Source: Ianthella basta (taxonomy: Eukaryota > Porifera > Demospongiae > Verongiida > Ianthellidae). Taken from it: a DNA stretch of 64,000 bases. Positions within the stretch are counted from its first letter, which is position 1. Every line of letters starts with the position of its first letter. A program made the translations under genes and the position numbers. The notes below the pieces were generated by a model that was not told the DNA's origin, did not search any database, and worked only from the letters and a program-made list of their open reading frames with translations. Location: assembly GCA_964019415.1 (NCBI GenBank), contig OZ025887.1, positions 3,530,958-3,594,957 on the forward strand. The letters are read 5' to 3'. This document shows, in pieces, positions 8,201 to 64,000 of the stretch.

Positions 8201-9493
8201 TCAGTACAATACAAAACCACCATACCGATCTGGTGGACGGTGTGTTCTGGTAGGGTAACGGCTTGGACATCGAGTGGCCATGTCTGGAACATCACGTTGA
8301 CCAATTGGAGGACGTGCCCTGGCAGGGCAAAGACTTGGAGATTGGTGGGAGGCTGTGTCGTCAGCCTCAACAGTTTGAAGCTGCTTGCCAAACACTGGAG
8401 GTTCTGTGGTTATCCCAGTAGGGGAAGTAGTGAGGGCAGGAGGTGACGGTTTCTCCTCATCAGTGAATCGGGTCCCCTCTACGCATGGTTTCAATCGGTC
8501 AAAGTGAACAACCAAACGCTGTTTCCTTCCACGGGTATGTTGAATCCGGTAAGTGACATCAGACAACTGCTTCACAATGCGATAGGGCCCGGTCCAGGGA
8601 TGATGCAGCTTACGAGATTGCCCTTTTGGGACAACCACTGAGTGCAGCCAAACTAAACTGTCCCGCTCATAGGGCTCTCCATGGATCTTGCGGTCATAAA
8701 AATCTTTCTGTCTGGATAACTTCAACTTGAAGTTCTTCCGCACCCTCTCATAAGCAGAACCAAGCATCCTCTGCAGTGCAGCAGCATATTCACTTGCCAG
8801 CTGGGGAGTGATGTCCGACGTACCATATGTGAGTTCAATTGGGAGGCGTGCCTGTCTTCCAAACATGAGGAAAAAAGGCAAGTATCCAGTTGTTGGCTGC
8901 AGGCTGGTGTTGTAGGCCATGCATACTGCTTGTACATGTTCTTCCCATGTATCATGATGGGTGCCAACCATGGTAGACAGCATGCTCAGGAGGGTACGGT
9001 TGAACCGCTCTACGAGTCCATCACTTTGAGGGTGATAGGGGGTTGTTCTTGTCTTCTTGATGTTCAGCAACCGACATACTTCACCCAGAACTTGTGCTTC
9101 AAACTGGCGACCCTGGTCGGAATGAAGCTGCTCTGGTGGGGAGAATCGCAGGAACAACTCATTGGTCAAAGTCTTGGCCACGGTGGAAGCTTCTTGGTTC
9201 GGGATGGGATAGGCTTCCATCCAACGTGTAAAGTAGTCACCCGCTACCAACAGGTATGAGTTCCCCTTAGGCGACTCGGGAAGTGGACCAAGGATGTCCA
9301 CTGCCACCAATTGCATCGGGTACCCCACAGTGACGGGTTGCAATGGAGCCTTCCTCTTAGGGTGGGCAGACTTCCGGGTAGTGCACTGCGAGCAAGTCCG
9401 ACACCACTTCTGCACATCGTTGAAGTGCCCAGGCCAATAGTACCTCTCTTTGAGTTTAGCCAGCGTCTTGTCTTCACCAAGATGACCCGACAT
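8201..9493 (-). CDS. Gypsy integrase region (fossil element part)
   Basis: Encodes the zinc-binding H2C2 module (H...H...C..C), the integrase core with the D, D and E positions typical of retroelement integrases, and a C-terminal basic region (LHHPWTGPYRIVKQLSDVTY) of the Gypsy type. It overlaps the reverse transcriptase/RNase H part just upstream. Confidence 0.9.
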   Translation of the reverse strand: MSGHLGEDKTLAKLKERYYWPGHFNDVQKWCRTCSQCTTRKSAHPKRKAPLQPVTVGYPMQLVAVDILGPLPESPKGNSYLLVAGDYFTRWMEAYPIPNQEASTVAKTLTNELFLRFSPPEQLHSDQGRQFEAQVLGEVCRLLNIKKTRTTPYHPQSDGLVERFNRTLLSMLSTMVGTHHDTWEEHVQAVCMAYNTSLQPTTGYLPFFLMFGRQARLPIELTYGTSDITPQLASEYAAALQRMLGSAYERVRKNFKLKLSRQKDFYDRKIHGEPYERDSLVWLHSVVVPKGQSRKLHHPWTGPYRIVKQLSDVTYRIQHTRGRKQRLVVHFDRLKPCVEGTRFTDEEKPSPPALTTSPTGITTEPPVFGKQLQTVEADDTASHQSPSLCPARARPPIGQRDVPDMATRCPSRYPTRTHRPPDRYGGFVLY

Positions 9494-12132
9494 GGTACCT
9501 CCATGGACATCATGTAGGCAGTGGGGGTTACCAACTGTAAATGAGAAGTGTTCCCATCATTGGACTCAAACACTCTCCACAGTATGCCGTCCTGGACAAT
9601 GAGTTGTCTCCATATCTGATGTAGCCGCCGATAACTGGGGCCATTGGCCAAGGATTCCGAAAGTGGTGGTTTCTGACCACTGTCTTTCCCTCTGAGAATG
9701 GGTCCCACATCTGGATCAGCAAGCTGTAAGTCCCTTAGTGAAACCTCAGATTGACCTCTGCATGAGACAGTAAGCACCAAGGAAGCAGCCTCTTCTGCGA
9801 ACGGCGGCTGTAAGTGGGTCTCTCGGCCACATTGATGACAAGGCAACCTGGATAGAGCATCAGCATTAGAATGTCTCTTACCAGGTCTGTGGAGAACAGT
9901 AAAATCATACTCCTGCAACCTCTCCAGCCATCGGGCAAGTTGTCCTTCGGGTTCCTTGAACTTCCAGAGCCAGGTGAGGGAGCTGTGGTCCGTTCTCAAT
10001 GTGAAGTGCGAACCCAACAGGTACGGGCGGAAGTGCTGCACAAACGTGACTACAGCCAACAATTCTCGTCTGGTGACACAATAGCGTCTCTCCTGTTTGG
10101 ACAAGACCTGGCTAGCATAGGCAATGACCTGCTCCTGACCATCCTGGACTTGTGAGAGCACAGCTCCCATTCCCACATCACTGGCATCTGTGTCCAAGAT
10201 GAATGGTTGGTTGAAGTCAGGGAAGGCCAAGATCGACGCAGATACTAACCTCTGGCAGAGCTCCTGGAAGGCTGATGCACATTCAGCACTCCAACGAAAT
10301 GAGCATGACTTCTCGGTTAGCCGGTGTAGCGGTTTGGCAATCTGTGCATAATCCTGCACAAACCGCCGGTAGTAACTAGCCAATCCAAGAAACTGCTGCA
10401 CTTCCCGGACTGACTGAGGTTCTGGCCAATTACTCACCTTCTCGGTTAGGGCTGGATTGGTTGCCACGCCTTGATCTGACACAATGTGTCCTAAGAATGC
10501 GACCTCCTTGCAAGCAAATGCGCATTTTGTCGGTTTCAGCTTAAGGTTGGCACTACGCAGACAGTCAAAAACCTCAGCTAGATTTCTCAAATGGTCCTCA
10601 AAAGTCTTATCCATCACAATGATGTCATCCAGGTACACGAGGCAACTGCTCCACTGCAGTCCTGCCAAGACCGAGTCCATCAACCTTTGGAAGGTCGCTG
10701 GGGCATTGCATAAGCCAAAGGGCATGACATTAAACTCAAAGAGACCCTCTGGCGTACAAAAGGCAGTTTTGGGCTTGTCTGCCTCGTCCATCTCAACTTG
10801 CCAATAACCACTTAGCAGGTCTAGGGTGCTAAACCACTTAGCGCCAGCAAGAGTGTCAAGCATATCATCTATCCTTGGAAGAGGGTATGCGTCTTTTCTG
10901 GTCACTGAGTTAAGCTCACGGTAGTCTACGCAAAACCTGATACTCCCATCCTTTTTCTGCACTAGCACAATCGGGGAAGCCCAGGGACTCGTTGATGGCT
11001 GAATGATCCCCTTGCAGCGCATGTCCTGTAGCAATTGACTGACTTCTTGTCTACGAGCTGGGGGAATTCTCCTGATCCGTTGTCGGATAGGGCAGGCATC
11101 ACCTGTGTTGATCTGGTGTTGCACCTGGGCGTTTCTGCCAAAATCATCAGGACTGCTAGCGAAAATGTCAGCATAACTCTCTAGAAATGCATACAGTACC
11201 TCACGCTGCTCTGTTGTCAGTTGTTCCCCCACACGTTCCACTGTGTGCCACAAGTCCCCCTCCAGTTCTCGTGAAATACTGAGCACTCCGCGACATTCCT
11301 GGTCTGAACACTCCACAACCTGGGAGGCCTCCACAGAGCTGGCTACAGCCACTCGACTGCCACTGTACAGAGTTACCTCTCCTTTTCCAGGGTTAAGGAT
11401 GCGGACAGGGATCCCCTGCTGTGCTTGAGCAGTTACCACGGCTTGAGCTACTAGTACTGGAGATGAGACTGTCTCTCTTCCCTCCACTAACCAGATCCCA
11501 CCCAGAACTGGACCCTCAGGGGTGGCAAGTACTTCCATCTCACTCATGGCTGGGACCTTGGTCGTCACTGCAACACGCAATACTTTAGTAGGGCCGGGCA
11601 TACACCCGCCTCCTGCCTTGTTTAACGGCACCTTACCCCCTGAAAAGCGGAGTTCACCAGCCCCAACAGCTAGTGTGCAATCATGGGCTTCCAAGAAATC
11701 TAGCCCGAGCAACGCTTCAGTGGTGATGTTGCTCAAAACAAAAATGCGGTGATCAAAATGTGTACCCCCAATGTTTATGCGCAACTCACAGGAACCATGT
11801 GAATCCAGGTTGTCTCCGTTCACACCAACAAAGGTCTGGGTACTGGCTTCAAGGGGAGGTCCATTTGGGCAAATCCGCTCCCACGTGTCTTTCCTTAGGA
11901 TAGTAAAAGCTGATCCGGTGTCAATCAGGAAGGAGACTCTTCCATTGTTGATTGTGGTGGCGAGAAAATATGATGAATCAGAGACTGTAGAATATACAGT
12001 TGTCGGCGGAGGGCACTGCTTGGGCATTTCCACTTCTCCCTCGAACGTAGGCCCCACTACGCCGAGGGTCGGCCGTTTCCCGGCAACTTCTTTGCTGCAC
12101 ATCCTCGAGCATAGTGCCCTTCTTTGCCACAC
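9244..12132 (-). CDS. Gypsy protease - reverse transcriptase - RNase H region (fossil element part)
   Basis: An aspartic protease site (LIDTGSAF) comes first. It is followed by a reverse transcriptase with DYRELN, DLLSGYWQ, MPFGLCNAPATFQ and the YLDDII catalytic box, then an RNase H domain (LDTDASDVGMGAVLSQ ... TDHSSLTWL). The order PR-RT-RH, with the integrase following on the strand, identifies Ty3/Gypsy rather than Copia. Confidence 0.95.
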   Translation of the reverse strand: MWQRRALCSRMCSKEVAGKRPTLGVVGPTFEGEVEMPKQCPPPTTVYSTVSDSSYFLATTINNGRVSFLIDTGSAFTILRKDTWERICPNGPPLEASTQTFVGVNGDNLDSHGSCELRINIGGTHFDHRIFVLSNITTEALLGLDFLEAHDCTLAVGAGELRFSGGKVPLNKAGGGCMPGPTKVLRVAVTTKVPAMSEMEVLATPEGPVLGGIWLVEGRETVSSPVLVAQAVVTAQAQQGIPVRILNPGKGEVTLYSGSRVAVASSVEASQVVECSDQECRGVLSISRELEGDLWHTVERVGEQLTTEQREVLYAFLESYADIFASSPDDFGRNAQVQHQINTGDACPIRQRIRRIPPARRQEVSQLLQDMRCKGIIQPSTSPWASPIVLVQKKDGSIRFCVDYRELNSVTRKDAYPLPRIDDMLDTLAGAKWFSTLDLLSGYWQVEMDEADKPKTAFCTPEGLFEFNVMPFGLCNAPATFQRLMDSVLAGLQWSSCLVYLDDIIVMDKTFEDHLRNLAEVFDCLRSANLKLKPTKCAFACKEVAFLGHIVSDQGVATNPALTEKVSNWPEPQSVREVQQFLGLASYYRRFVQDYAQIAKPLHRLTEKSCSFRWSAECASAFQELCQRLVSASILAFPDFNQPFILDTDASDVGMGAVLSQVQDGQEQVIAYASQVLSKQERRYCVTRRELLAVVTFVQHFRPYLLGSHFTLRTDHSSLTWLWKFKEPEGQLARWLERLQEYDFTVLHRPGKRHSNADALSRLPCHQCGRETHLQPPFAEEAASLVLTVSCRGQSEVSLRDLQLADPDVGPILRGKDSGQKPPLSESLANGPSYRRLHQIWRQLIVQDGILWRVFESNDGNTSHLQLVTPTAYMMSMEVPCRVILVKTRRWLNSKRGTIGLGTSTMCRSGVGLARSALPGSLPTLRGRLHCNPSLWGTRCNWWQWTSLVHFPSRLRGTHTCW

Positions 12133-12824
12133 TTGTGGCAGACGACAGGGGCTGATGGATCTCTGGATTGGGGTTGACGGTCTCTTCGGGTTGCAGATGA
12201 CTGAGTTTCCAGACGCTCCAGGCGTTCAAGGATGGTTGACATGGTCTCCAGCAAGGCATCTGGTCTTCCCCAAACTCGATCTACAGACGCTTCTTCCACC
12301 CGTGCTACATGCTGCTTTGGAAGCAGGTACGACTCTAGCTCAAGGGTAGCACTCACCGCGGCCTCTACTGTGGTAGGGTGTCGCTGTTTCACGGCAAAAG
12401 CAATCTGGGGATTGTCAATCTGACCCAGATACTGCTGTAGGGCCAGTAGCTGTCGAGCGTCTGTGCTCAAGGTGGGGAATGCCCGATCAGCTAACACTCT
12501 GAGTTCCTCGCCAAAATCGGCCCATCCCTCAGACTTGCTCTTCGCGCACGTGTGAAACTCCGCCACGTACAAGGCACGCTTGCTCTCTGGTTCAAAGCGT
12601 TCGCGCAGAGCCTTGACAGCCTCCTCGTAGTCTCCCTGCGCTGCCTCGGACAGCTGCTTAAATGCCCGTTGGGCCCGTCCTGTCAGGCGGACCTTCAGCC
12701 ACAGTAGCTTCTGTTCAGGGGTCCACTTGTTCACCGCCGCGACGTTACCGAAGTGGTCGAGCCACTCATCCCAGTTCCCATCGCCTGCATACGCGTCAGA
12801 AAGGACAACTGGTTTCCCCGCCAT
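12057..12824 (-). CDS. Gypsy gag region (fossil element part)
   Basis: Opens MAGKPVVLSDAYAGDGNWDE just inside the LTR and primer site. It carries a capsid-like helical region (EQKLLWLKVRLTGRAQRAF) and ends with a single CCHC zinc knuckle, CHKCGKEGHYARGC. A decayed relative of this gag lies at 51.87-52.26 kb. Confidence 0.9.
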   Translation of the reverse strand: MAGKPVVLSDAYAGDGNWDEWLDHFGNVAAVNKWTPEQKLLWLKVRLTGRAQRAFKQLSEAAQGDYEEAVKALRERFEPESKRALYVAEFHTCAKSKSEGWADFGEELRVLADRAFPTLSTDARQLLALQQYLGQIDNPQIAFAVKQRHPTTVEAAVSATLELESYLLPKQHVARVEEASVDRVWGRPDALLETMSTILERLERLETQSSATRRDRQPQSRDPSAPVVCHKCGKEGHYARGCAAKKLPGNGRPSA

Positions 12825-12833
12825 TCCTCCAAA

Positions 12834-12852
12834 AATCCTGCCGACTACGCCA
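12834..12852 (-). other. Primer-binding site matching tRNA-Ser 3' end
   Basis: The plus strand reads AATCCTGCCGACTACGCCA, equal to the 3' end of eukaryotic tRNA-Ser of the AGA type (…CCTGCCGACTACG plus CCA). On the coding strand it is therefore complementary to that tRNA. It lies 2 nt inside the 5' LTR, as expected for minus-strand priming. Confidence 0.85.
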
Positions 12853-12854
12853 AT

Positions 12855-13130
12855 TGTAGAACGCTGTACAACTCGTTGGGGCTGGAAAACGGACGGGCAT
12901 GCAACGAACACTTCACGGGCACAAGTCAACAATCAATGAAGCAACAAGGTGAACCAAACCTGTGAGCACTACAGGGTCTCTGATCGTGACTGACTAAGGT
13001 GCAACAACAACCGGATGATCACAGAGTTCTAATCAGGTGTGGATACATAACTTTTTAAATTACAGATACACATGTACACAACACAATCATCCACACACAG
13101 TTAACACAAGGGTCCACACAGTGTCACACA
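12855..13130 (-). repeat. Gypsy LTR (5' LTR of the minus-strand element)
   Basis: 276 bp, TG...CA, matching 7894-8169 base for base by eye. It is adjacent to the primer-binding site. Confidence 0.95.
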
Positions 13131-19423: not shown

Positions 19424-21773
19424 CCACACACCACGAGTGCTAGTAGAGTGTCTGAGCTACGTACTGTAGGTGACTGTCTATTATACATTGGTTTTCGCAC
19501 AGATGCTTCAGTGGCTAGAGAATGTGCTATTAATATATATAATGCTGAGCTGGACCACTCCCTAGCCTGCCTGATTCTTTACCCTTTCCACAGCTAGCAC
19601 TTCCAGAGGTGGCATGAACCTGTGTGCCATTGAATAGTCATGAATTATCCTTGGATAAGTAGCTACTCTTGGGAATATAGTTTTGCTTATTCCTGCTTGC
19701 CAGGACACCCACCTAGCCTGTCTGTCTCCTAGCTCTAATGCATACCACAGCACAAACACCAGCTGCAGCCTATTATTTAGGAGGAGCTAGGCCCCCCAGC
19801 AACAGGATGCTGACTCATCTACTGACTGGACCACTCTCCTGTAGCTCTCCTCTTACCACAACTAAGTGTATTCATTGGGTAATAATATCCATTACAGGCA
19901 TTCTTGGAACTGTCCCCAATTCCCACAGCACAACAAACATGCAAGGTCAGGAGAGCAAGGCGACCTGTTTGTTTAAGTGCACATCCATCAATAAAAGCAC
20001 TGGTACTGCAAAGACTATACAAATGCTACCATGCATATTGCTCCAGCAGTTAGGTAGTGAGAGGACACTATAATATGTGTACACAGAATGTCATAGTGTA
20101 CCTATTATTATCATTCTTGGTTCATAACAAAATTCATCCTTACTGTAGTGGCCATGTGAGCTTGTGTCAGCATTCCACTATTGGGTGTGATATGCATGAG
20201 CTAGGAGACAGACAGGTGAGAGGGTTGTCCAAGCAACAATGTAGCTACAAGCAAACTCTTTTAGTAGCTACCTGTGCAAGAACAGTTCATGACTATTCAA
20301 TGGCACACAGCTTCATGCCACCTCTGGAAGTGCTGTCTGTGGAAAGGGCAAAGAATCAGGCAGGCTAGGGAGTAGTCCAGCTCAGCATTATATATATGAA
20401 TAGCACATTCTCTAGCCACTGAAGCATCTATATGAAAACCCAATGTATAATAGACAATCACCTACAGTACGTAGCTCAGACACTCTATACTAGCACTCGT
20501 GGTGGTTAGTGATGAACCAAAAAATGAGCATAATATACTATGACATTCTGTGTACACATATTATAGTGTCCTCTCACTACCTAACTGCATGGTGGAGCAA
20601 TATGCATGGTAGCATTTGTATAGTCTTTGCAGTGCACTTAAACAAACAGTCCGCCTGCTCTCCTGACCTTGCATGTTTGTTGTGCTGTGGGAATTGGGGA
20701 CAGTTCCAAGAATGCCTGTAATGGATATTATTACCCAATGAATACACTTAGTTGTGGTAAGAGGAGAGCTGCAGGGGAGTGGTCCAGTCAGTAGATGAGT
20801 CAGCATCCTGTTGCTGGGGGGCCTAGCTCCTCCTAAATAATAGGCTGCAGCTGGTGTTTGTGCTGTGGTATGCATTAGAGCTAGTATAGTCTTTGCAGTA
20901 CCAGTGCTTTATTGATGGATGTGCACTTAAACAAACAGGTCGCCTTGCTCTCCTGACCTTGCATGTTTGTTGTGCTGTGGGAATTGGGGACAGTTCCAAG
21001 AATGCCTGTAATGAATATTATTACCCAATGAATACACTTAGTTGTGGTAAGAGGAGAGCTACAGGGGAGTGGTCCAGTCAGTAAATGAGTCAGCATCCTG
21101 TTGCTGGGGGGCCTAGCTCCTCCTAAATAATAGGCTGCAGCTGGTGTTTGTGCTGTGGTATGCATTAGAGCTAGTATAGTCTTTGCAGTACCAGTGCTTT
21201 ATTGATGAATGTGCACTTAAACAAACAGGTCACCTTGCTCTCCTGACCTTGCATGTTTGTTGTGCTGTGGGAATTGGGGACAGTTCCAAGAATGCCTGTA
21301 ATGAATATTATTACCCAATGAATACACTTAGTTGTGGTAAGAGGAGAGCTACAGGGGAGTGGTCCAGTCAGTAGATGAGTCAGCATCCTGTTGCTGGGGG
21401 GCCTAGCTCCTCCTAAATAATAGGCTGCAGCTGGTGTTTGTGCTGTGGTATGCATTAGAGCTAGGAGACAGACAGGCTAGGTGGGTGTCCTGGCAAGCAG
21501 GAATAAGCAAAACTATATTCCCAAGAGTAGCTACTTATCCAAGGATAATTCATGACTATTCAATGGCACACAGGTTCATGCCCACCTCTGGAAGTGCTGT
21601 CTGTGGAAAGGGTAAAGAATCAGGCAGGCTAGGGAGTGGTCCAGCTCAGCATTATATATATTAATAGCACATTCTCTAGCCACTGAAGCATCTGTGCGAA
21701 AACCAATGTATAATAGACAGTCACCTACAGTACGTAGCTCAGACACTCTATACTAGCGCTTGTGGTGGTTAGT
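19424..21773. repeat. Inverted and tandem repeat complex beside the gap
   Basis: The left arm (19424 to about 20095) is the reverse complement of the right arm (about 20536-21773). The shared outer end carries GAGTGTCTGAGCTACGTACTGTAGGTGA, with the outermost bases ...GGTGGTTAGTG on the right. The right arm contains three tandem copies of a 290-bp segment (TGCATTAGAG recurs at 20871, 21161 and 21451). A third, directly oriented copy of the outer 300 bp lies at 20196-20514 in the centre. Translated shadows such as HTTAQTPAAAYYLGGARPPS repeat with the units and are not genes. Probably several nested copies of one non-autonomous element. Confidence 0.85.
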
Positions 21774-24933: not shown

Positions 24934-25796
24934 TTACACAAAGATTGGAAGGGAAAAGAATGTGTTTTTATGCCAATTACATGCAGCTGGAGTCACTCGG
25001 CAGCACACACGCTCTTTCAGCTGCATATTTCCAGTCTCCTGGGAGCAAAGTGTGAAGCAAACAAGGCAGCAAATGATCTCCAACATGCAATGCAGCGCAG
25101 ATTCACTTACATTGGTGAGCCAGACACATACATACATAGGTCTGCCAACAAAACTATGCATATACATGTACACTCACTCTCAGTGACTTTCCCTTAGTTT
25201 CAATTGGTAGCAAGACAATAGCAACAGTGCAAGCAACAACCATGGCCAGGAACAGACTTATTCCAGCTACATCATTTGCCTCCAGCAACACCTACTCACG
25301 GGAGAGGATACGAAGAGAAACCAAGATTCTATATATGCCACCAGAGTCTGGCTAGCTAGACCGTCCCACTCAGCACCCTTCTAAGTGTCCCAGGCATACC
25401 GTTAATTGGGATGGTGTAGCTAGCCAGACTAATGCCACCATCATGTAATACTATCACAGGTAAACTGTGATGGAAATAGAACAGGGCTGTACTACTCCCT
25501 CACCTGAGCAATGTATGGTGTGATAATGCCTCCTGCACTTCCAACTGCTGAGGCTATTCCAAGACCAAGACTTCTCACTTCAGTTGGGTACACTTCTGCA
25601 GTGTACACATACAAAATCTGACTTGCCCCAGAAATGAAGGCACGAGCACAGAACAGGAAGGCTGTAGTGACCTCTCTGAAAGTGGACAGCACAATGTAAC
25701 TGGTATGACAAAATGGCTACACGGTGACTCCATATGCTCATTAAAGTACACAGCAAGCTCATTATACAAGAGGCTACTTGGAAGGTACCAACAGCA

Positions 25797-25854
<58 letters not shown>

Positions 25855-28800
25855 CTACATACGTACCTATGCTGACACAGGTAAAGGAGGCCAGTGAAGA
25901 TGGCACACAGGGTGACCCCTCCTGCCATGAGCACCCGCCTCCCAAGAAATGGTGAAAGTAGGGCAAAGACAATGACTCCTGGGAGCTCTGCAGAAGTCGT
26001 CCACATGATGTCAATGTAGTCCTCTGGTTGCAGACTCTGACAAACGTCCAACTTGGGGATCCCACCAGTATCTGAATGTTGGTGCAAGCAGTATAAGTGT
26101 TTGTGTTTGAGTTTGTGTAGGAGTGAGTGAATGAGAGAGGTAAGGGGGGAACGAGATGAGTACGCAGGTTGTGGTGCAAACCTCCAAATTCCTCAAAAGT
26201 ACATGATCATGTGTAACTCACTGCAGTGCTCACGGAAGCGAAACAATGAAGTTGCAAGAAGAAAAGTACCAAAGTAGTATGCTGTAGATGTCAGCCATAT
26301 TAGCCACAGCAATACAGTAGTCCTCCACATTCCTTTCTTGAATAAATGGGCAAACAAGAAATTGGTATGCTGAGTGGAAGTGGAAGACAAGACATTAGAG
26401 AACACTACGTATCAATATTATTACAGTACAGAACACATTAGCATGTTAGTCACTGCTCAATACAGTATTGCATGTAGCAAACATTATCATCATCTCTGAC
26501 CCACACTTAGCCTCAAATCAAAAATACAATTATAAAAATTTACATAAGTAGTAGCCATAGACCAATTACATATGAATTCACCCGCAGTCAAAAGAGGGCA
26601 ATGTGGGAGCTCAAATAACACTTGTAAATACACTTGCTACTGCACTACTCTCTTCCAGTTTCCTCTTGAAACCGGCTGTTTGTGTTGCTATTTGCCATTG
26701 AGCTACTTCTGGACTGTTCCCACTGTTGTCACACAAACTCAACAGGCACTTCACTCACCTTTTCAACTGTCATGCACACTTTCGAATTCTGCAAGGACCA
26801 TGTATGCATGCTGCACCCAGCTGCTTTTCACACCACCCATAAGAGAGTGACCCACTTCACTTGCCCAATCAACCAAGTAACCCAGATTGTCTCACGAGGC
26901 AGTGCCACCTGTACAAACACAGATGGCACTGCCTCACATTTCAGACGACTGTTTTTGACTATCCCAGATGCAGTGACTCTGACAGTTGCCCCACATCACA
27001 CTTGGTAGCCACAAGCCAGCCATTCTCTTCTCTAGTCTTTGTTCAATTTGGTGGGAATGCCATGAAAAACACATTAGGCCACTTATTATGACAGTTACTG
27101 TAGTTCAGCACACAGCAGTGATCATGCTCTGACATTCTGCTTTTGACCTGTGCAATAAGCACGAATGGCAGCCAATTGACTTCATGCCTATGTCCACTCT
27201 AGCTGAGGCCACCCCGTTTGGGAACTTCATTACCCAAAGGGGTTACCAAAGTTCAGAGGTGAGTTGTCAATCAAATGACATGCTTGTGACTTACCGCTTC
27301 AGTTTGTGAGTCTCGTGTGTGATGGGTGATTTCACACTGTAATGTGTACTAGACAACACCTCTCCTGTCGTATCAATGTGCCCCATCATTTGCACAACAC
27401 TGCCTCATAATGGGATTGTTAATCATTACTAAAATGTGCCAACTCAGCACTTTAGTGCAATAATAATATTATCATGTACAAGGGGTAAAGTGATTGGTTC
27501 GGGTGTCGTTGTCGTTGTCATGGACACAAAAAACGGCAGTTCTCAACACCTTGGTGTACACATCCACATTTATACACTTAACCTCTTGCACTCTGCGTGG
27601 GGTTTGTGCTCTAATGAGCACTCTAGTTTTATCATGCAATTGGTCTATTCTCTCTCCTCCGTCCCCCCACTCCCCTTGCCCTCTCTTTTGCACACAATAA
27701 TACATATAGCATTTTACCTTTATCTCTTGATGGGCTGTCACAATCACAGGTAACATGGCTCTAGAGCTCTCTTTGTCCATCTCCCCATTCAGTTCTTCAC
27801 TATCATCTTGCTCTCCATCACTCACTATCATACTTAGTTGAAAATGATCATCTTTCTTTCCTGCACTCTCTAGCTTAGCAGACAGACTGGGTTTGCAGTT
27901 AAACTTTGCTATCTTGACAAGTATGCTTTGGGCTTTGTGAGTCTGCCCCTTCAGTGTCAAATACCTTGGAGTCTCTGGTATAGTCTGTATGTAAACGACA
28001 ATTGTATATAGCATCCTGCACTCAACATCATACTCAGCACATAGCACATCAGAATATTCATGGGCCCCTCTATTCATATTGCTTGTGTTCCATCTCATAT
28101 CACACATGTGCACGGGCAGCTGGGTTAACATTGATGTGCATATAGAGTCCATATATACACATGTAAATACACTTATTTGCTGTTGCTAGGTGGTTGCTAT
28201 GTTTATTGAGTGACTATAAAAGTGCTACTTGCAGTGAGAGGTGACAATTTGTTATCAGACAGCGATTATATCTTATTGGAGAGCGATTATATCTTATAGG
28301 AGAGCAAGAATATCTGATTGGGTTCACGAAAATATCTAATCGGCTTCAGTGTGATTCAATCAATAGCAACAACACTTCACATGCAAGTGCTTGCATTCAG
28401 ACAAGAGTAGATAAGATACAGTAACTACACTACCCAACCATTAATATTATGGAGCGCCAAATGCAGCAAAATCCGACCATCGATCATCGATTATCCGATA
28501 TTCGATGTCGACCATCGATCATCGATGTCGACCATCGGTCATCGATTATCCGATAATCGATGTCGACCATCGATCATCGATGTCGACCATCGATCATCGG
28601 TGTCGATCATCAATAGTTAATGGTCTAACCTGCCGCCTTGTTCCCAGACTACTTTTGGCCACCGTTTTAGCAAATGGCGGGCGGAAATGGTCTGCATGGG
28701 AACGGGACTAGACCGCTTCCCCTCCATTTTACTGGTGACGTCATCCGTAGGAAAAGCGGTCTGGCTAGCGAGACTAAAATAGCAGCTGTAGTCTTTGTGT

Positions 28801-31800
28801 AATTAAGCGCTGACAGGATGACATCACCGATAGCTCCAGCTGGTGTCCGCCTTTAGTTTTTGGCGGGGAAAATGGCTGAAGAAGAATCGAAAGAGGCGAC
28901 ATTAAAGAAGGCCGTCGATCTATTGCAAGGAATTATAGGACATTCATCTGAACAACGCCAGAGTAAGGAGAATAATTATGCGTAAAGGAAGCTTTTTTAT
29001 GTAAGAATGTTTTTCATTTCTTTCTTTTCACCACACCAGCGCTTAACCATAGCTAGGTAGCCAGTAGTTCTTGCGCTCTACTATCTATGGCTAGACTCAG
29101 CGTGTTTTCCTTAGCTACTCCATGTCATATTTTAATTTAGCGCTGTTTAATATAGCTGTATAGCAGCTGTTGTTATAGTTCTATTAAATTATTTATTCAG
29201 GTGTCCAAGAAGATGTCCAGTCTTCCTGTAATCAGGCCATCAGCGTATTTAGAAGCCAACTCGGACAAAGCACTTCTGGGCTTGGAACTTCAAGATCATC
29301 CGGCATATACTCGGAGCAGAAGGCTAATTTTGCTGCTTACTCACGCAATAAGGTCACAACAAAAGGAAAATGTAAACCTCAGTCATGGACTGTGAAGATG
29401 GTATGCCTCAACTCAAAAGATGCCACCAGAGTTCCGTTGACTGTTGCAGAGAAAGAGCTGCTAGTAGAAGCAGGCCTGGGTGAAAAGAAGGTGACCATTG
29501 ATGACATGTCATGCTCACCACAAGATTTTAAAGCAGCAATTGTTAGCACCTTCCCTAAACTTGAGGACTGTGGGGGATTCGAGCTTCTCAGATGTCTACC
29601 ACACGGTCTCAAAAAGTTGGAGCCTATTTCAGCAGCTGTTGCACAATACCCCAAGCTACTCAAGAGTGTTGTTGGCAATGGACGAGTCTTCATCCGGCCA
29701 ATCCAGAAAGACTTGAGTCTGAGGCAGGATGAAAACCTCACCAATGCAATACAGGTATTTACAATTATTCTTACATATTTCTAAAGCAGCCCATGACATC
29801 GATATTATATTTTGTACCATTAGAAGGAAGCATGCATGTATTGTGGGGAAGAAATCCCAATGGACTTACTGAGGAAGCATGTGCGTAACTGCCTGAGCAT
29901 CAAGTATGTCAATGGGTAACAGCATTATGTACTGACACCACATGCATGCAAACCATGCATTGTGTGCCTCATTCATATTTAATTTCATATGATGTACACA
30001 GTATGACATCAGCATTATATATCCATGCATATAGCCTTTATTAAGTAATGGCATGTTTCTGATGTGCAGGGACTTCAGTGATGTGGACTCAGAGTTTGAG
30101 AGTGACCTGGAAGAGAAGAAACCTGGAACACATGTGCACTCTCCAATCAACTTGGCATCTGATGATAGCAAGGATGACGATGATGGAGTACCATTAGTGA
30201 AGAAGCAGAAATATGCTGATACTGGTGATGATGAGCAGGAAATGCTATATGATGAATCCAGCACATCTGCGTCCCCTGGTGTCCTGAACACAGTTTCTGT
30301 GGAGACGTGTGCACATGACCTGCCCAGTGTAATTCATGTGCTAGCTATGAATTTGTCCAAGGAAGAGTTCCGCATATATGTTCGAAGAAACCATGTAGTG
30401 GAAGATGCCCTGAAGGCCGTGTCCAGGAAGTGCTTCTCATGCCGTTTCTCATTGAAGGTATTATGCAAGATGAATTAGCACAAGTTTGAAGCAAATTGTC
30501 TGATGCATGTACTTTATTTATGCAACTCTCTTGTTCTATACAGATTGAATTTGTGGGAGAATGTGCAGATGATGGAGGTGGTCCACGCAGAGAGTTTTGG
30601 ATGCTTCTGGCACGAGAGGTTGCATGTACAATGTTTACTGGCATGGATTATCGCCTAGTGCCAATTCATGATGCTGTTGGATTGCAGGTACATGTATAAT
30701 AATGTCTGCATTTAGCTGCTACAGATTATATAATGTCAGTGCACTATAATTCTAGTATCATGGTACAGAACATTTTATAGCCACAGCTTAGCAGTTTTAG
30801 CACCAGATGCCGCTATGCATTAATTTGTGTTTCCTGTATATTGCAGAGGAACAAGTTCTATCACCTTGGCATGCTCATGGCAATGAGCATTGTGCAAGAT
30901 GGAAGTGGCTTTTCCTTTTTAGCTCCACCTGTTTACCAATACATCTGTGGTATGGAGATCCCACGAATTGCTATTGCAGATGAGGATGTCCCAGACTACG
31001 AAGTCAGGAAACTTATTGAAGAGGTATGCGCGCATATATATGCAGCAGTTTGCATGAGAGGATGTTCTGGTCCATTTCCATGCACATGCATGCATGGTGT
31101 ACGGCCACCCTTGACAATTAAGGACTATGTAGCTTTTACCATTGTCCACGTAGATCAACAAAGCTGAGGATGCACAGGCATTACGACAAGTCTGTCTGCA
31201 AGCTGTGGACACCACCATAGATGCTGGCTATACATTGCCTGTGATGTCTCTTCAGCTGGATGACAGGGAGCATCTGATTCAGACTTTGAGATTGCACTAC
31301 GTCTTGCTGCGGTCAAAGGCAGTCTTGGACCAGCTCATTACAGGTCTTTCATGCCTGGGTGTTCTGGACTCCATCAGGGAGAACCCAGGAATGTTTGAGC
31401 CCTATTTCATTGCTGCTAAGCAAGCCAAGCTGACATCATGTAAGTGTATAGAATTCATTGACATCATGAACTAAGCCAATATGACCATTTCTCTTTTCTG
31501 TTCTGACTCACACACATAGCTTTCATTCAGGACCTCTTCAAGACTGTTTATTTCTCGGAGAAAGGCACAAATGCCAGAATTAGGGAAGAGAGCACATTCA
31601 TTCTGTTTATTGATCTTCTCAACAGCTGTGAAGGTACAGCATGCTTGTTTTGATTCTTTCAAATTATGCACTTACTATGATTGTGGTTATGTTGATAATG
31701 TATTGCTGCAGATGACGATGATGCTGAGGTCAGCCTCTCTACTGTGTTAAGTTTCTTCACGGGAGCAGAGGTACCACCTCCCCTCGGTTTCAACCCTGCC

Positions 31801-34800
31801 ACCTTGAGGTTCTCTGAGACTGATATTGAGTTTCCCACAGCATCCACTTGTGCTCTGGAACTCACTCTTCCAACCAAACACCATGACAACCCTATCATGT
31901 TCAGGGAGAAGTTTGTGTATGCTTTGAAGCACCATGGTGGCTTTGGTTTGTACTGAGAGACCTCGATGCACTTTCTGCTCTAGTTATATTTGGAGTTGAC
32001 TTCATACAAGCCATGCATTGAGTTTCTATATCAGTATGATTTGTATAATATTGTACATGATGGAGATGGAGCTATTATAGCTATGCAACTAAGTAGTGAA
32101 TGACTGGACAGCAATGCAAGTTCTGGCAAACAGAGAAATGCCTAAGTCATCACAGGGAGCAAGTGGGTCCACCAATTCCCTCAACTCAACCAATTGCTGT
32201 GCACTGAGTGGGTTTGGAGTATCTGGTACTTCCACCCTTTCGGCATCTAAGTCGACACCCACTGGTCCATCCCAATCAATGCCATATGAGCTCTGGAAAA
32301 ATAGAATTGTAATTGATTATAAGATGAAGCCCATTTTACGAATCACATAATAAGATGTGGCATGCATACCTAGGTTCAGGTATGCCATATACACCTGATT
32401 GATCAATTACTTGCATTTGATAATACATTCATCCAAATACATATACCCTAAATCTGCAACATCCATACACTTACGAGCAAATCTCTGGAAGCTCCTTGTA
32501 AGGCCTCATCATCTTCTGATACTTCCATAGCAAGACCCCTAACCCAAAGCTGTAAGGGACTTTGGTTACCTGCCGTCCTAAGGCGGTGGTGGCTGTATGA
32601 CTCTTGAAAGAGTTTCAACTGGTGGTTGATGCGAGGCAAGAAAACGTAATGCAGGGAGAACATGTGCAGACCATTTGAGGTATCCAACATTTCTGCTTCT
32701 TCAAGTGTGCGAAATAAGTCATAAAACAAACACACGCATCCAACAAAAAGGTCTCTCCATAGCCTCTCAATTCTCTGATTATGGACACTCCTTCCTGTAA
32801 TGCAGCTTCTTCTGCCAGGACCACGCTCAGGATGATACAGCATGAATTCTGATACTCTGACATTCTCCCCTCCTCTGTCACATCGAACTCTTGATGGAAG
32901 ACCATATGTAGCTACTGCTGAAAGAAAGCAGTTCAACACTGTGTCGGCTCGATTGTTAGTTGAAGCTTGCAGATAAACTGGTAGTCTGGAATATCCATCT
33001 ATTCCTCCGTGGATGACAATTCGCCATCTAATGAGTTTATGATACCCATCAATATGCCATAGGCTATTGGGCATGCCGACACGGTATCTCCGTCGATGAA
33101 GTGCTTGCCTAAACCTTCTGCACACTGCCTGAGGATCCACCCTAAATAAACTCTCCCTGACATGACACCTCCGGACTCTTAGGCCTCGCGACCTCAAGTA
33201 ACCTGCATATAATCTGGATCCACTATTGGGGTGTGTTTCAACGTACTCCCTTGTAATGGTATCAAGGTCTCCATCTGTCATGTCAGAGTATCCTGTAAGA
33301 CCTTGCAGCCCGAATTGATGAATTCTTCTTCTCACGGTGTCTGGTGACACTTGCAACATGGCAGCCATATCTCGAATAGAGAAATGAAGTTCCAACAACA
33401 TGGCCAATTGCTCTTCACTAATGTGTATCTGCGGTCTGCCTCTAGGCCTAGCTGTATGTTGTAGGATGTCATGGTGATTCTGCACAGCTTGTACCACATC
33501 GACCACAGCTTGTGCAAGGTTGTCGGAAACAGATTCTTCAATATGAAAGAGTTCAATGAATGTTACAACTTCTCTGAGGAGCACATCTGCTTGCAACAAA
33601 GCTTCCTCTGCATTCTCCAGAGTATTTGCTAAACAAAAGACTTTAATACCTTCAATTTCTTCCTCAAAATGTCTTAGGAAGGTTGATGGATCTTCTGCCA
33701 TTTGCAACAAGCATGGAAATGGAACTGCTGATAGCATGGGAATGGAACTGCAGATAGCATGGGAATGGAACTGGCGCTGGGAGTTGTCGCTACCATCGAT
33801 CGTCGATGGTCGACATCGATCATTAGATAATCGATGATGGTCGACATCGATGATCGACAGTCGGCACCGATGATCGATGGTCGACATCGATGATCGACGG
33901 TCGGCCGATGATCGATGGTCGACATCGATGATCGATCGGATAATCGATAATCGATGGTCGGATTTTGCTGCATTTGGCGCTCCATATAATATGGTTGGGT
34001 TTTGAAATCTATGGTGCCACTGTACGTTTCAGTCATGGAAATAGGCGCAAAAAGCTTAAGTTTCATCTTATTGGAAGCACTGAGCAAACTGATTACTGGC
34101 GTTCTACCGTACTACAGCTGTCGATTCGAAGAAATTTGTGCGTCGATGGGTGGCCGATTCTTCCGCATGAGAGGACCCGGTCAGAAAGACATCTCAAGTA
34201 CGTAGCTAGCTAGCTAGCTACCGAGTGAACACAGAGTCTCGGATCACGGTCAGTTCCGACGCAGCTGATCACCGATCCATCGTGCTGTCCCACTGTCAGA
34301 TTCCTCTGAGCCAGCTTGGCTCCCTCCGCCTCCAATGCCGTCGGGCGCACCTTCCGCCGACCACGATTCACCAGCCAAGTCTGTTGGCGCCTTCGATCGC
34401 GTTGCAGGAGCGGGGCAAACGTCTCCTCCGTAGAGGAAGAGGTTTCAGGAGGTGTAGCGTACCAATGTTTCTGCCTGACTCGCTTGGCTCCTCGCTAGCT
34501 AGCTCTCGTAATGAATAAAAATGCATTGGATTCGCCCGCGCTCCCCTAATGCTTTCCTTATTTGGCAAGAAACCAATTAACATTCGCCCACGCTTCCCTT
34601 TGTTCGGCAAATAAATCACTTATAACACCTCCCTGAGGGATGTCGCTGATTTATAAGCACGAGGCCTGAGGGCGCGAAGCGCCCGAGGGGGGAGTGTTTA
34701 TAAATCAGCAACATCCCTCAAGGAGGTGTTATAACTAATACATAAAGTCATGTGTCGAGTTGTTTGAGTGCTTTACATGTAACTCAGTGAATACCATATA

Positions 34801-42941: not shown

Positions 42942-53539
<10,598 letters not shown>

Positions 53540-55712: not shown

Positions 55713-57459
55713 AGGGGGCTACAGTAGAGGGGGGGGGGGGCTGCAGTAGAGAGGGGGGGGGGGGCTGCAGTAGAGAGGGGGGGGCTGCAGTAGAGAGGGG
55801 GGGGGTGCAGTAGAGAGGGGGGGGGCTGCAGTAGAGAGGGGGGGGCTGCAGTAGAGAGGGGGGGCTGCAGTAGAGAGGGGGGGCTGCAGTAGAGAGGGGG
55901 GGCTGCAGTAGAGAGGGGGGGCTGCAGTAGAGAGGGGGGGCTGCAGTAGAGAGGGGGGGGCTGCAGTAGAGAGGGGGGGGCTGCAGTAGAGAGGGGGGGC
56001 TGCAGTAGAGAGGGGGGGCTGCAGTAGAGAGGGGGGGCTGCAGTAGAGAGGGGGGGCTGCAGTAGAGAGGGGGGGCTGCAGTAGAGAGGGGGGCTGCAGT
56101 AGAGAGGGGGGGGCTGCAGTAGAGAGGGGGGGCTGCAGTAGAGAGGGGGGGCTGCAGTAGTGAGGGGGGGCTGCAGTAGAGAGGGGGGGGCTGCAGTAGA
56201 GAGGGGGGGCTGCAGTAGAGAGGGGGGGGCTGCAGTAGAGAGGGGGGGCTGCAGTAGAGAGGGGGGGCTGCAGTAGAGAGGGGGGGCTGCAGTAGAGAGG
56301 GGGAGGGCTGCAGTAGAGAGGGGGGGCTGCAGTAGAGAGGGGAGGGCTGCAGTAGTGAGGGGGGGCTGCAGTAGAGAGGGAGGGCTGCAGTAGTGAGGGG
56401 GGGCTGCAGTAGAGAGGGGGCTGCAGTAGAGAGGGGGGGCTGCAGTAGAGAGGGGGGGCTGCAGTAGAGAGGGGGGGCTGCAGTAGTGAGGGGGGGCTGC
56501 AGTAGAGAGGGGGGGGCTGCAGTAGTGAGGGGGGGCTGCAGTAGAGAGGGGGGGCTGCAGTAGAGAGGGGGGGGCTGCAGTAGAGAGGGGGGGCTGCAGT
56601 AGAGAGGGGGGGCTGCAGTAGTGAGGGGGGGCTGCAGTAGAGAGGGGGGGGGCTGCAGTAGAGAGGGGGGGCTGCAGTAGAGAGGGGGGGGCTGCAGTAG
56701 AGAGGGGGGGCTGCAGTAGAGAGGGGGGGCTGCAGTAGAGAGGGGGGGGCTGCAGTAGAGAGGGGGGGCTGCAGTAGAGAGGGGGGGCTGCAGTAGAGAG
56801 GGGGGCTGCAGTAGAGAGGGGGGGGCTGCAGTAGAGAGGGGGGGCTGCAGTAGAGAGGGGGGGCTGCAGTAGAGAGGGGGGGCTGCAGTAGAGAGGGGGG
56901 GCTGCAGTAGTGAGGGGGGGCTGCAGTAGAGAGGGGGGGCTGCAGTAGAGAGGGGAGGGCTGCAGTAGAGAGGGGGGGGGCTGCAGTAGAGAGGGGGGGC
57001 TGCAGTAGAGAGGGGGGGGCTGCAGTAGTGAGGGGGGGCTGCAGTAGAGAGGGGGGGCTGCAGTAGAGAGGGGGGGCTGCAGTAGAGAGGGGGGGCTGCA
57101 GTAGAGAGGGGGGGCTGCAGTAGAGAGGGGGGGGCTGCAGTAGAGAGGGGGGGCTGCAGTAGAGAGGGGGGGGCTGCAGTAGAGAGGGGGGCTGCAGTAG
57201 AGAGGGGGGGCTGCAGTAGGGAGGGGGGGCTGCAGTAGAGAGGGGGGGGCTGCAGTAGAGAGGGGGGCTGCAGTAGAGAGGGGGGGGCTGCAGTAGGGAG
57301 GGGGGGCTGCAGTAGAGAGGGGGGGCTGCAGTAGAGAGGGGGGGCTGCAGTAGTGAGGGGGGGGGGGCTGCAGTAGAGAGGGGGGACTGCAGTAGAGAGG
57401 GGGGGCTGCAGTAGAGAGGGGGGGGCTGCAGTAGAGAGAGGGGGCTGCAGTAGAGAGGT
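55713..57459. repeat. G-run minisatellite (CTGCAGTAGAGAGGGGGGG)n, about 90 units
   Basis: About 1.75 kb of 18-22-bp units, each CTGCAGTAGAGAG followed by 5-12 G. Length variation is almost all in the G-run; a few units read GTAGTGAGG or GTAGGGAGG. The long reverse-strand frames (STAAPPLYCSPPS) are artefacts. The plus strand offers about 90 successive G-runs. Confidence 0.98.
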
Positions 57460-61561: not shown

Positions 61562-62688
61562 CTACAGGGAGCGCTTCACCTTGAGCCTAACCTTCTGGCA
61601 CTCTCCGTCTGTCTCTGTACAGTAGTGCCTGGAACCAGAAGTGAAGTTGAAGCACCTCAAGCTTATGCTCTTGTAACCATGGCAGTGTATGTCTTCGTAT
61701 ATGCCATTCCGTCCACCGTACTTCTTGACAAACTCGTGGTGGGTCATGTTGGACTTCCTGCGGTTGCAGTCCCTGCAGGCTACAACTCCGTTCACCACTG
61801 TGGTGCGACCTTCCTTTGACCACGGAATGAGGTGGTCTGCCTCCCATGGCTCCTCTAGCTTGAACTTCTCACCGCAGTAGAAACACTGCCGCTTGCAGTG
61901 ATGGTAGATTAGTTGCTTCTCATTCTTGTTGAAGAGCCTCCTGCCCACTCCATCTACCTCATCTACCTCAGCACAGTCCACTTCAGTGTTGTCTCGCACA
62001 TATCGATACAACTGGTGATGTTCTTCACTGCAGAACACACCCACCCCAGCAACAACATTCTCACAACGGACTAGATCAGGAGTGAAGCCATGACAGCGCA
62101 GGCCTGAGGGGACTCCACCATTCCCTCCAAACTGCTCCACAAACTGGTGATGTGTGAGTTCTGCCTTCTTCCCTGTGCACTCCCTGCAAGCTGCTACTCC
62201 ATTGGTCACCACAGTGTAGTCCTCACTGCGTGCTGGATCCAGGTGCACAGCAAACCAGCCCTCGCTAAAGTCCAGTGGACGGTAGCAGAAGAAGCACTTC
62301 TCCTGGCAGTGAGCGAAGATCAGGAGACGCTCATTTCTGTTGAACAGACGACGCCCTGCTCCATCATACTCCTCCTGGGGACGAACATCATTCTCATATG
62401 CACAGTCTTCAAGTTCATCTTCCTTGTTGCCTTCATCTCCTGTGCACAAGTGGGTGGGAATCAACACACCAGTGATCAAATTACGAACATGACCGCAATC
62501 TTATGTACTACGCGCACTGGTAGTCCAGGCATATGTCATTAGTTTGAGATGCAACCACACTACACGTAAACGGTAAGGTATGTGCATCGAACCATTGCCA
62601 ATCCTTCAGCAGGGCCCAACTCGCGGGAGTACAGTGTACCGTGGCTGGTAAGCCCACTGAAGTCGCGCTTACTGGCTAGCACAACCAT
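61562..62688 (-). CDS. Tandem HNH-nuclease-domain protein, about 297 residues
   Basis: A main exon 61562-62439 and a tentative 16-bp first exon 62673-62688 (MVVLA) join in phase 1. Two copies of one module follow each other. Module 1 (31-146): DGAGRRLFNRNERLLIFAHC, CFFC at 54-57, VH at 70-71, CREC at 90-93, then RCENVVAGVGVFCSEEH. Module 2 (168-285): DGVGRRLFNKNEKQLIYHHC, CFYC at 191-194, ADH at 206-208, N222, CRDCN at 227-231, then LRCFNFTSGSRHYC. Module 2 keeps the HNH residues (D207 H208 ... N222); module 1 has lost the Asp, so it is probably structural. Predicted metal-dependent nucleic-acid cleavage; substrate unknown. HNH domains of this type are rare in animal nuclear genomes. Confidence 0.75.
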
Positions 62689-63312: not shown

Positions 63313-63826
63313 TCAACGAGGAGAGATCCCTTCCTCTCTACAAAACTCCTTGTAAGGCATATCAGCTTTCCTCAGGTTGCAGGGAGGGCACGCTGCAACT
63401 CCATTTGCTAGAGTAGTCTGACCACCCAAAGCCACTGGATGCTTGTGATCAGCATGCCAGTTATTTGGGTTAAGTCGAGTTTCACAATAGTGGCAATTGC
63501 CACCAGATGCATACCACAAAGCTTCACGTTTTGAACCTCGATATCGATCAGAAGAGCCTCGGTCAGTTTCTTCAGTGACATCATCTGTCAATTTCTGATC
63601 AACTAGTTTCACATTTTCACCATGCTCAGCACAGCAAAAGAGCTCATCCCCTGTGCATGCCTTCTCACAGCGTGACTGTTCATTAATAAAGCCCAAGCAC
63701 CGACCAGCTGCAGTGGGTGACACATGGCAGGCATTGCAGACAAGCACATGTTTAGCTGCGACGTTGATAACTTGAACTCTGCTGAGGTAGTCAAGGGCAG
63801 GGAAGTGAGAGCACTGGTCTTTTTCG
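63313..63826 (-). CDS. HNH-nuclease-domain protein, 3' exon (gene continues off the right edge)
   Basis: Bounded upstream by an acceptor-like GAAAAAG|ACCAG; the 5' exons lie beyond 63826. The peptide begins with LVCNACHVSPTAAG and the same Cys-rich element as its neighbour (RCLGFINEQSRCEKACTGDE, LFCCAEH). An intact HNH domain follows: CHYC, then NNWHADHKHPVALGG, then LANGVAACPPCNLRKADM. It ends EGISPR and stop. It is a paralogue of the tandem HNH gene, with HNH and Cys-rich elements in the same alternating order, and lies 0.6 kb upstream on the same strand. Confidence 0.75.
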
Positions 63827-64000
63827 TGACGAAAAAAAAAACAAACCATTATTAATAAAGCAAAGTAGGCACACATGCGCACTGCCTACAGATTACATAT
63901 ATACAGTATAATGCAAGGTATAAAGATCATGACATGGTCATTGTGTTTTGCAAGCAATAATATTAGTCTGCAATTAGTCCATCATGTAGTTAGATCTGCC
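63827..64000. other. Window edge; likely intron of the HNH gene
   Basis: An A/T tract (AAAAAAAAAA at about 63832) and no coding sequence. Confidence 0.4.

Follow-up and report, generated by a model that had tools for sequence, protein, structure and literature searches.

Element structure and gene content

The window, a stretch of 64,000 nucleotides of contig OZ025887.1 of the sponge Ianthella basta (positions 3,530,958 to 3,594,957 of the forward strand), contains an element that is almost certainly an IS3EU/GingerRoot DNA transposon, recently mobile and apparently self-sufficient. A gene for a HECT E3 ubiquitin ligase and a DDE transposase gene lie tail to tail within it, their 3' ends separated by 132 bp. 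In a preliminary description, made from the sequence alone, the element had been delimited by matching terminal inverted repeats, identical 6-bp target duplications and subterminal arrays, and credited with an open two-exon transposase gene and an open nine-exon HECT gene with catalytic Cys658. Re-analysis recovered each of these features, with coordinates, residues and tail-to-tail order exact. A summary is shown in Table 1.

Table 1. Coordinates of the transposon and its parts in the window
Feature	Position	Strand	Basis
Whole element, 5,539 bp, TATGGAGCGCC..GGCGCTCCATA	28448..33986	.	Complementary ends, flanking duplications, further copies sharing ends
Left target-site duplication, TAATAT	28442..28447	.	
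Right target-site duplication, TAATAT	33987..33992	.	
Left terminal inverted repeat, outer 52 nt, 98% complementary to right arm	28448..28499	+	
Right terminal inverted repeat	33935..33986	-	
Left subterminal tandem array	28474..28611	+	
Right subterminal tandem array	33805..33960	-	
HECT E3 ligase gene, nine exons (28872-28962, 29201-29754, 29824-29903, 30070-30457, 30544-30687, 30847-31023, 31154-31439, 31520-31633, 31712-31956); 692 aa, C658	28872..31956	+	Splice sites, Pfam, profile match to solved HECT domains
DDE transposase gene, exons 33701-32475 and 32292-32089; 476 aa; D218, D275, E312	32089..33701	-	Exons and splicing, Pfam, triad in relatives

The coding sequence of the HECT gene comprises 2,079 nt including the stop codon, and all eight introns are bounded by GT..AG. 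The spliced protein passes the curated Pfam cut-off for HECT (47.4 bits, cut-off 23.9). As a profile it matches both lobes of the solved structures of TOM1, WWP1 and HUWE1 (E 2.4e-23 to 9e-21); the single sequence, compared with the PDB, matches chiefly the N-lobe. C658 aligns in the C-lobe with the conserved TC position of known HECT domains, which we take to be that of the catalytic cysteine, and a cysteine is kept there in all nine HECT copies compared, from seven families. Judged by domain and cysteine, the protein is probably a real, active ubiquitin ligase. Its N-terminal part may form a ubiquitin-like (beta-grasp) domain, and a zinc-finger-like motif is present in the protein. A structure prediction for the whole HECT protein, based on a fish relative and seven aligned sequences, was discarded (mean pLDDT 49).

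For the long frame of the transposase gene, Pfam gives 276.4 bits with rva_4 (cut-off 26) and 40.8 bits with rve (cut-off 32.6). The DDE triad is unchanged across 18 aligned relatives; among the transposase rows of this genome it is intact in 10 of 12, with residues changed in families F and G. Three 23-bp direct repeats (33710-33778) are located inside the element, immediately 5' of the transposase start codon.

IS3EU/GingerRoot elements are marked by TA..TA ends and usually by 6-bp duplications (Kojima and Bao 2023, PMC10045372). The termini TATGG..CCATA occur in all five copies of the family to which the window copy belongs (family A), and the related families C, D and E start with TATGGGG or TACGGGG. 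The 6-bp duplication is perfect in four of the five family A copies and agrees at five of six bases in the remaining one. The IS3/IS481-like DDE core is represented by the rva_4 and rve matches together with the triad. The element thus fits IS3EU/GingerRoot by each feature tested (ends, duplication and DDE core).

Copies, gene pairing and relatives

The genome (209 Mb in 96 contigs) was searched for the ends with a 20-base pattern, allowing up to two mismatches; the reversed pattern served as control. The pattern was found at 11 places, ten of them the paired ends of five copies and the eleventh with two mismatches, and the control gave no match in the 209 Mb. Each copy lies on its own contig: the window copy on C20, the others on C7, C4, C23 and C10, of which only that on C7 has the imperfect duplication. 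The full copies (C20, C7, C4 and C23) are 5,479-5,555 bp long, with both genes open and every splice site kept, and are alike in 99.1-99.9% of aligned bases. Between C20 and C7 there are 3 differences in 5,539 bases, none of them in the 2,029 non-coding columns. The C4 copy has a 21-base in-frame gap within HECT. The C10 copy, 1,979 bp long, has an internal deletion that left the 5' parts of both genes. The preliminary description had pointed to other copies with the same ends as a check, and HECT is indeed present in four of the five, the fifth being a deletion that retains its 5' part.

Synonymous and nonsynonymous changes between family A copies were compared with a neutral expectation of 74% nonsynonymous; the copy pairs overlap and the P values are uncorrected. 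The synonymous/nonsynonymous counts for HECT are 7/6 in C20-C23 (P 0.03), 7/5 in C7-C23 (P 0.02), 6/6 in C7-C4 (P 0.07), 6/7 in C20-C4 (P 0.10) and 0/1 in C20-C7. Those for the transposase are 8/4 in C20-C4 (P 0.003), 7/5 in C7-C4 (P 0.02), 8/8 in C20-C23 (P 0.03), 7/9 in C7-C23 (P 0.09), 0/4 in C4-C23 (P 1.0) and 1/1 in C20-C7. This lean gives weak support to constraint on both genes, weak because the pairs overlap and the P values are uncorrected.

Matches to the transposase query (94) and to Pfam rva_4 (102) were merged by hand into 65 loci. HECT matches comprise 31 loci of the transposable element (TE) type and 29 others, namely the remaining Pfam HECT loci and a match on C9, whose host status is only presumed. 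Both searches give lower bounds. A TE-type HECT match lies within 9 kb of 22 of the 65 transposase loci (22 of 76 if 11 weak rva_4 rows, E 1.4e-4 or worse, are included), and of 19 of the 26 that score at least 200 bits. About 0.17 pairings would be expected by chance, a figure that assumes random points, while the 22 pairs include copies of the same family and are not independent. None of the 65 transposase loci lies within the same 9-kb reach of the 29 other HECT loci. The tail-to-tail order is found in 15 pairs, and in six, all from family C, HECT follows the transposase on the same strand; the 22nd is the C10 remnant, scored as 5prime owing to its overlapping remnants.

Twelve elements could be delimited by both ends with the pair between them: four of family A, two of family C (C21, C7), four of family D (C1, C16, C13, C18) and two of family E (C2, C1). 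The 6-bp duplication is perfect in nine of them, agrees at five of six bases in two (family A on C7, and family D on C13 by its outer end) and is absent from one (C18); on C13 and C21 two candidate ends were present, and the one yielding a duplication was chosen. Between representatives of families A, C, D and E (C20, C21, C13 and C2) the transposases are 44-59% identical and the HECT domains 31-43%. HECT gene models were built for family A, the other families being known from HECT matches; stops occur in those on C2 (family B), C1 (family E) and C14 (family F). Locus L014, where 43 bp match the end array, gave no match to the HECT or transposase protein.

In topology tests the HECT data are compatible with the transposase tree (p-AU 0.24), support within the HECT tree being low, while the HECT tree is rejected by the transposase data (p-AU 4e-7). 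That the two genes descended together may be taken as the simplest reading of the sequences, short of proof, and HECT may have been exchanged between families. Sequence search also found fish relatives of the HECT protein; the best-scoring named relatives are from the sponges Ephydatia (33% identity) and Halichondria (41%). The TE HECTs, together with the Ephydatia and Misgurnus relatives, are split from Chanodichthys and two canonical HECT proteins with 98% support. A comparison of 31 HECT with 120 transposase rows among the matches listed suggests that two relatives of the HECT N-terminal part each share a contig with a transposase relative, with no distance given: the longest contigs are of equal length within each pair (P0129/P0019, 561,133; P0133/P0104, 843,784). 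Single-sequence and alignment scans of viral contigs with each protein found no relative of HECT or transposase.

The remainder of the window holds other repeats and frames. Gypsy-like retrotransposon frames at 8201-12932 (minus strand) have protease, reverse transcriptase and RNase H domains by Pfam, with integrase-like and gag-like neighbours recognized by eye. A LINE-like open frame of 1,157 codons at 46692-50165 (plus strand) has endonuclease and reverse transcriptase domains, and adjacent frames at 61562-62500 and 63313-63885 (minus strand) have HNH endonuclease domains (Pfam HNH, E 5e-16 and 1e-8). Two similar sets of frames at 25356-28185 and 43417-44142 (minus strand), the first adjoining the element, resemble by eye a duplicated membrane-transporter gene; two frames from these sets matched no Pfam family. 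Tandem arrays are located at 55734-57458 (19-bp unit, about 89 times) and 20632-21464 (290-bp unit, 2.9 times).

Proposed role of the ligase gene

The HECT gene appears to be an enduring second gene in these elements, and it is likely that its function is selected within the element. On balance we favor the interpretation that this is an IS3EU/GingerRoot element whose second standard gene encodes a HECT E3 acting in trans, perhaps against host silencing. The transposase would work on the inverted ends, as its family leads one to expect. The HECT protein would act in trans as an active ligase, its divergent N-terminal part would select the substrates, and their ubiquitination would promote the spread of the element. 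Host silencing or defence factors would be the first guess for these substrates, on the model of the TET/JBP genes that fungal IS3EU elements carry (see below); that the targets are host factors which silence or resist transposons is plausible, if held with somewhat less than even confidence.

Several observations weigh against this interpretation. The synonymous bias of HECT is weak and uncorrected, and is absent between C4 and C23 (2/5, P 0.59); synonymous-biased change, named in the preliminary description as a check, thus appears as a lean between copies but not as a firm signal. HECT matches are absent within 9 kb of 43 of the 65 transposase loci, mostly fragments. Elements that lack HECT and have perfect duplications were found on C12 (3,206 bp), C19 (2,413 bp) and C1 (1,810 bp). 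The first two are about 96% identical to the corresponding parts of family D, and that on C19 contains an open frame of 458 codons with the triad. Because these derivatives also moved, HECT is dispensable in cis and would work in trans. The anti-silencing target, for its part, is drawn wholly from analogy. The earlier claim that HECT is fixed cargo stands, given the presence of the pair in four of five same-end copies and in other IS3EU-like families, with the one limit that the HECT-less derivatives transposed as well. The functions suggested there for the ligase, in host defence, transposase stability or repair during movement, would be conjectural.

Two further derivatives were noted. On C19, two HECT-less elements about 93 kb apart (L035 and L036) have identical flanks, and so represent a segmental duplication of one insertion and not two insertions. 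In an element of 3,394 bp on C17, whose flanks do not match, apparently only the N-terminal part of HECT remains (weak match, E 0.002).

The main rival to the anti-silencing target is control or clearance of the transposase complex. The ligase would then act on the element's own machinery, either setting the amount of transposase or clearing the transposase-DNA complex after strand transfer for repair, which we regard as rather unlikely, though the strongest of the alternatives. In its favor are the lasting association of HECT with the transposase, in 15 cases tail to tail, the acceptance of the transposase tree by the HECT data, and the case of phage Mu, in which the transposition complex is cleared by an unfoldase. 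Rejection of the HECT topology by the transposase data leaves tight co-descent unproven, and HECT-less copies moved, though HECT was possibly supplied to them in trans.

Some plant transposons pick up host genes, and HECT could likewise be a passively captured, hitch-hiking host gene. HECT domains are common in hosts, the 29 further loci here being presumed examples, and HECT-deleted derivatives persist. This explanation is nevertheless improbable, as the pair recurs across families with strongly diverged transposases, the TE HECTs and the Ephydatia and Misgurnus relatives are separate from Chanodichthys and the two canonical HECTs in the tree, the catalytic cysteine is kept in every copy compared, and both genes are open in each of the four full family A copies. 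Least probable of all is a gene that mainly serves the host, as useful cargo or in the course of domestication: the low copy number (five) and the 9 of 31 TE-type HECT matches without a transposase match within 9 kb agree with it, but the only such locus examined closely (L066) holds just a relic of the N-terminal part, with no ends mapped, and within each family the HECT-bearing copies occupy differing sites with duplications of their own.

In a wider form, the interpretation of HECT as a second standard gene acting in trans can be extended only tentatively. HECT might be an ancient standard second gene of animal IS3EU elements that predates the split of sponges and fish, a trans-acting helper which writes ubiquitin marks and whose fast-changing N-terminal part is directed to factors of host silencing or to the transposase complex. 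To our knowledge, few cargo genes of DNA transposons have been demonstrated to accompany the transposase over the long term. In this case a single genome supplies four end-mapped families with the pair, alongside naturally occurring derivatives of the same family from which HECT was deleted. It is directly testable whether a ubiquitin ligase encoded by a transposon enhances transposition, overcomes silencing or regulates the transposase, and some unexplained HECT proteins predicted in animal genomes may be transposon genes.

Comparison with known systems

With the HECT E3 ligases TOM1, WWP1, HUWE1 and E6AP the encoded protein shares both lobes, as matched by profile, and the aligned catalytic cysteine; it differs from them in being distant and transposon-borne and in its dissimilar N-terminal part. 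The element has the TA..TA ends, 6-bp duplications and IS3/IS481-like DDE core in common with IS3EU/GingerRoot, for which the word HECT is absent from the main text of the description (PMC10045372). Fungal IS3EU elements ending in TAYGG..CCRTA carry TET/JBP and alpha-kinase genes, the latter opposite to the transposase, and an anti-silencing role has been proposed for TET/JBP (PMC12730594). These are similar to the present element in their ends, 6-bp duplications, opposite-facing cargo gene and an enzyme potentially countering silencing. Their cargo is, however, a dioxygenase and an alpha-kinase, whereas here it is a HECT ligase in an animal, and HECT does not occur in the text of that article (PMC12730594).

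A HECT-bearing transposon was not found in searches of an open-access library of papers, and one may be on record in Repbase, Repbase Reports or subscription papers. DNA transposons with genes of the ubiquitin/SUMO system do exist, bearing Ulp1 or OTU. The products of those genes remove ubiquitin-like tags, whereas a HECT ligase adds them.

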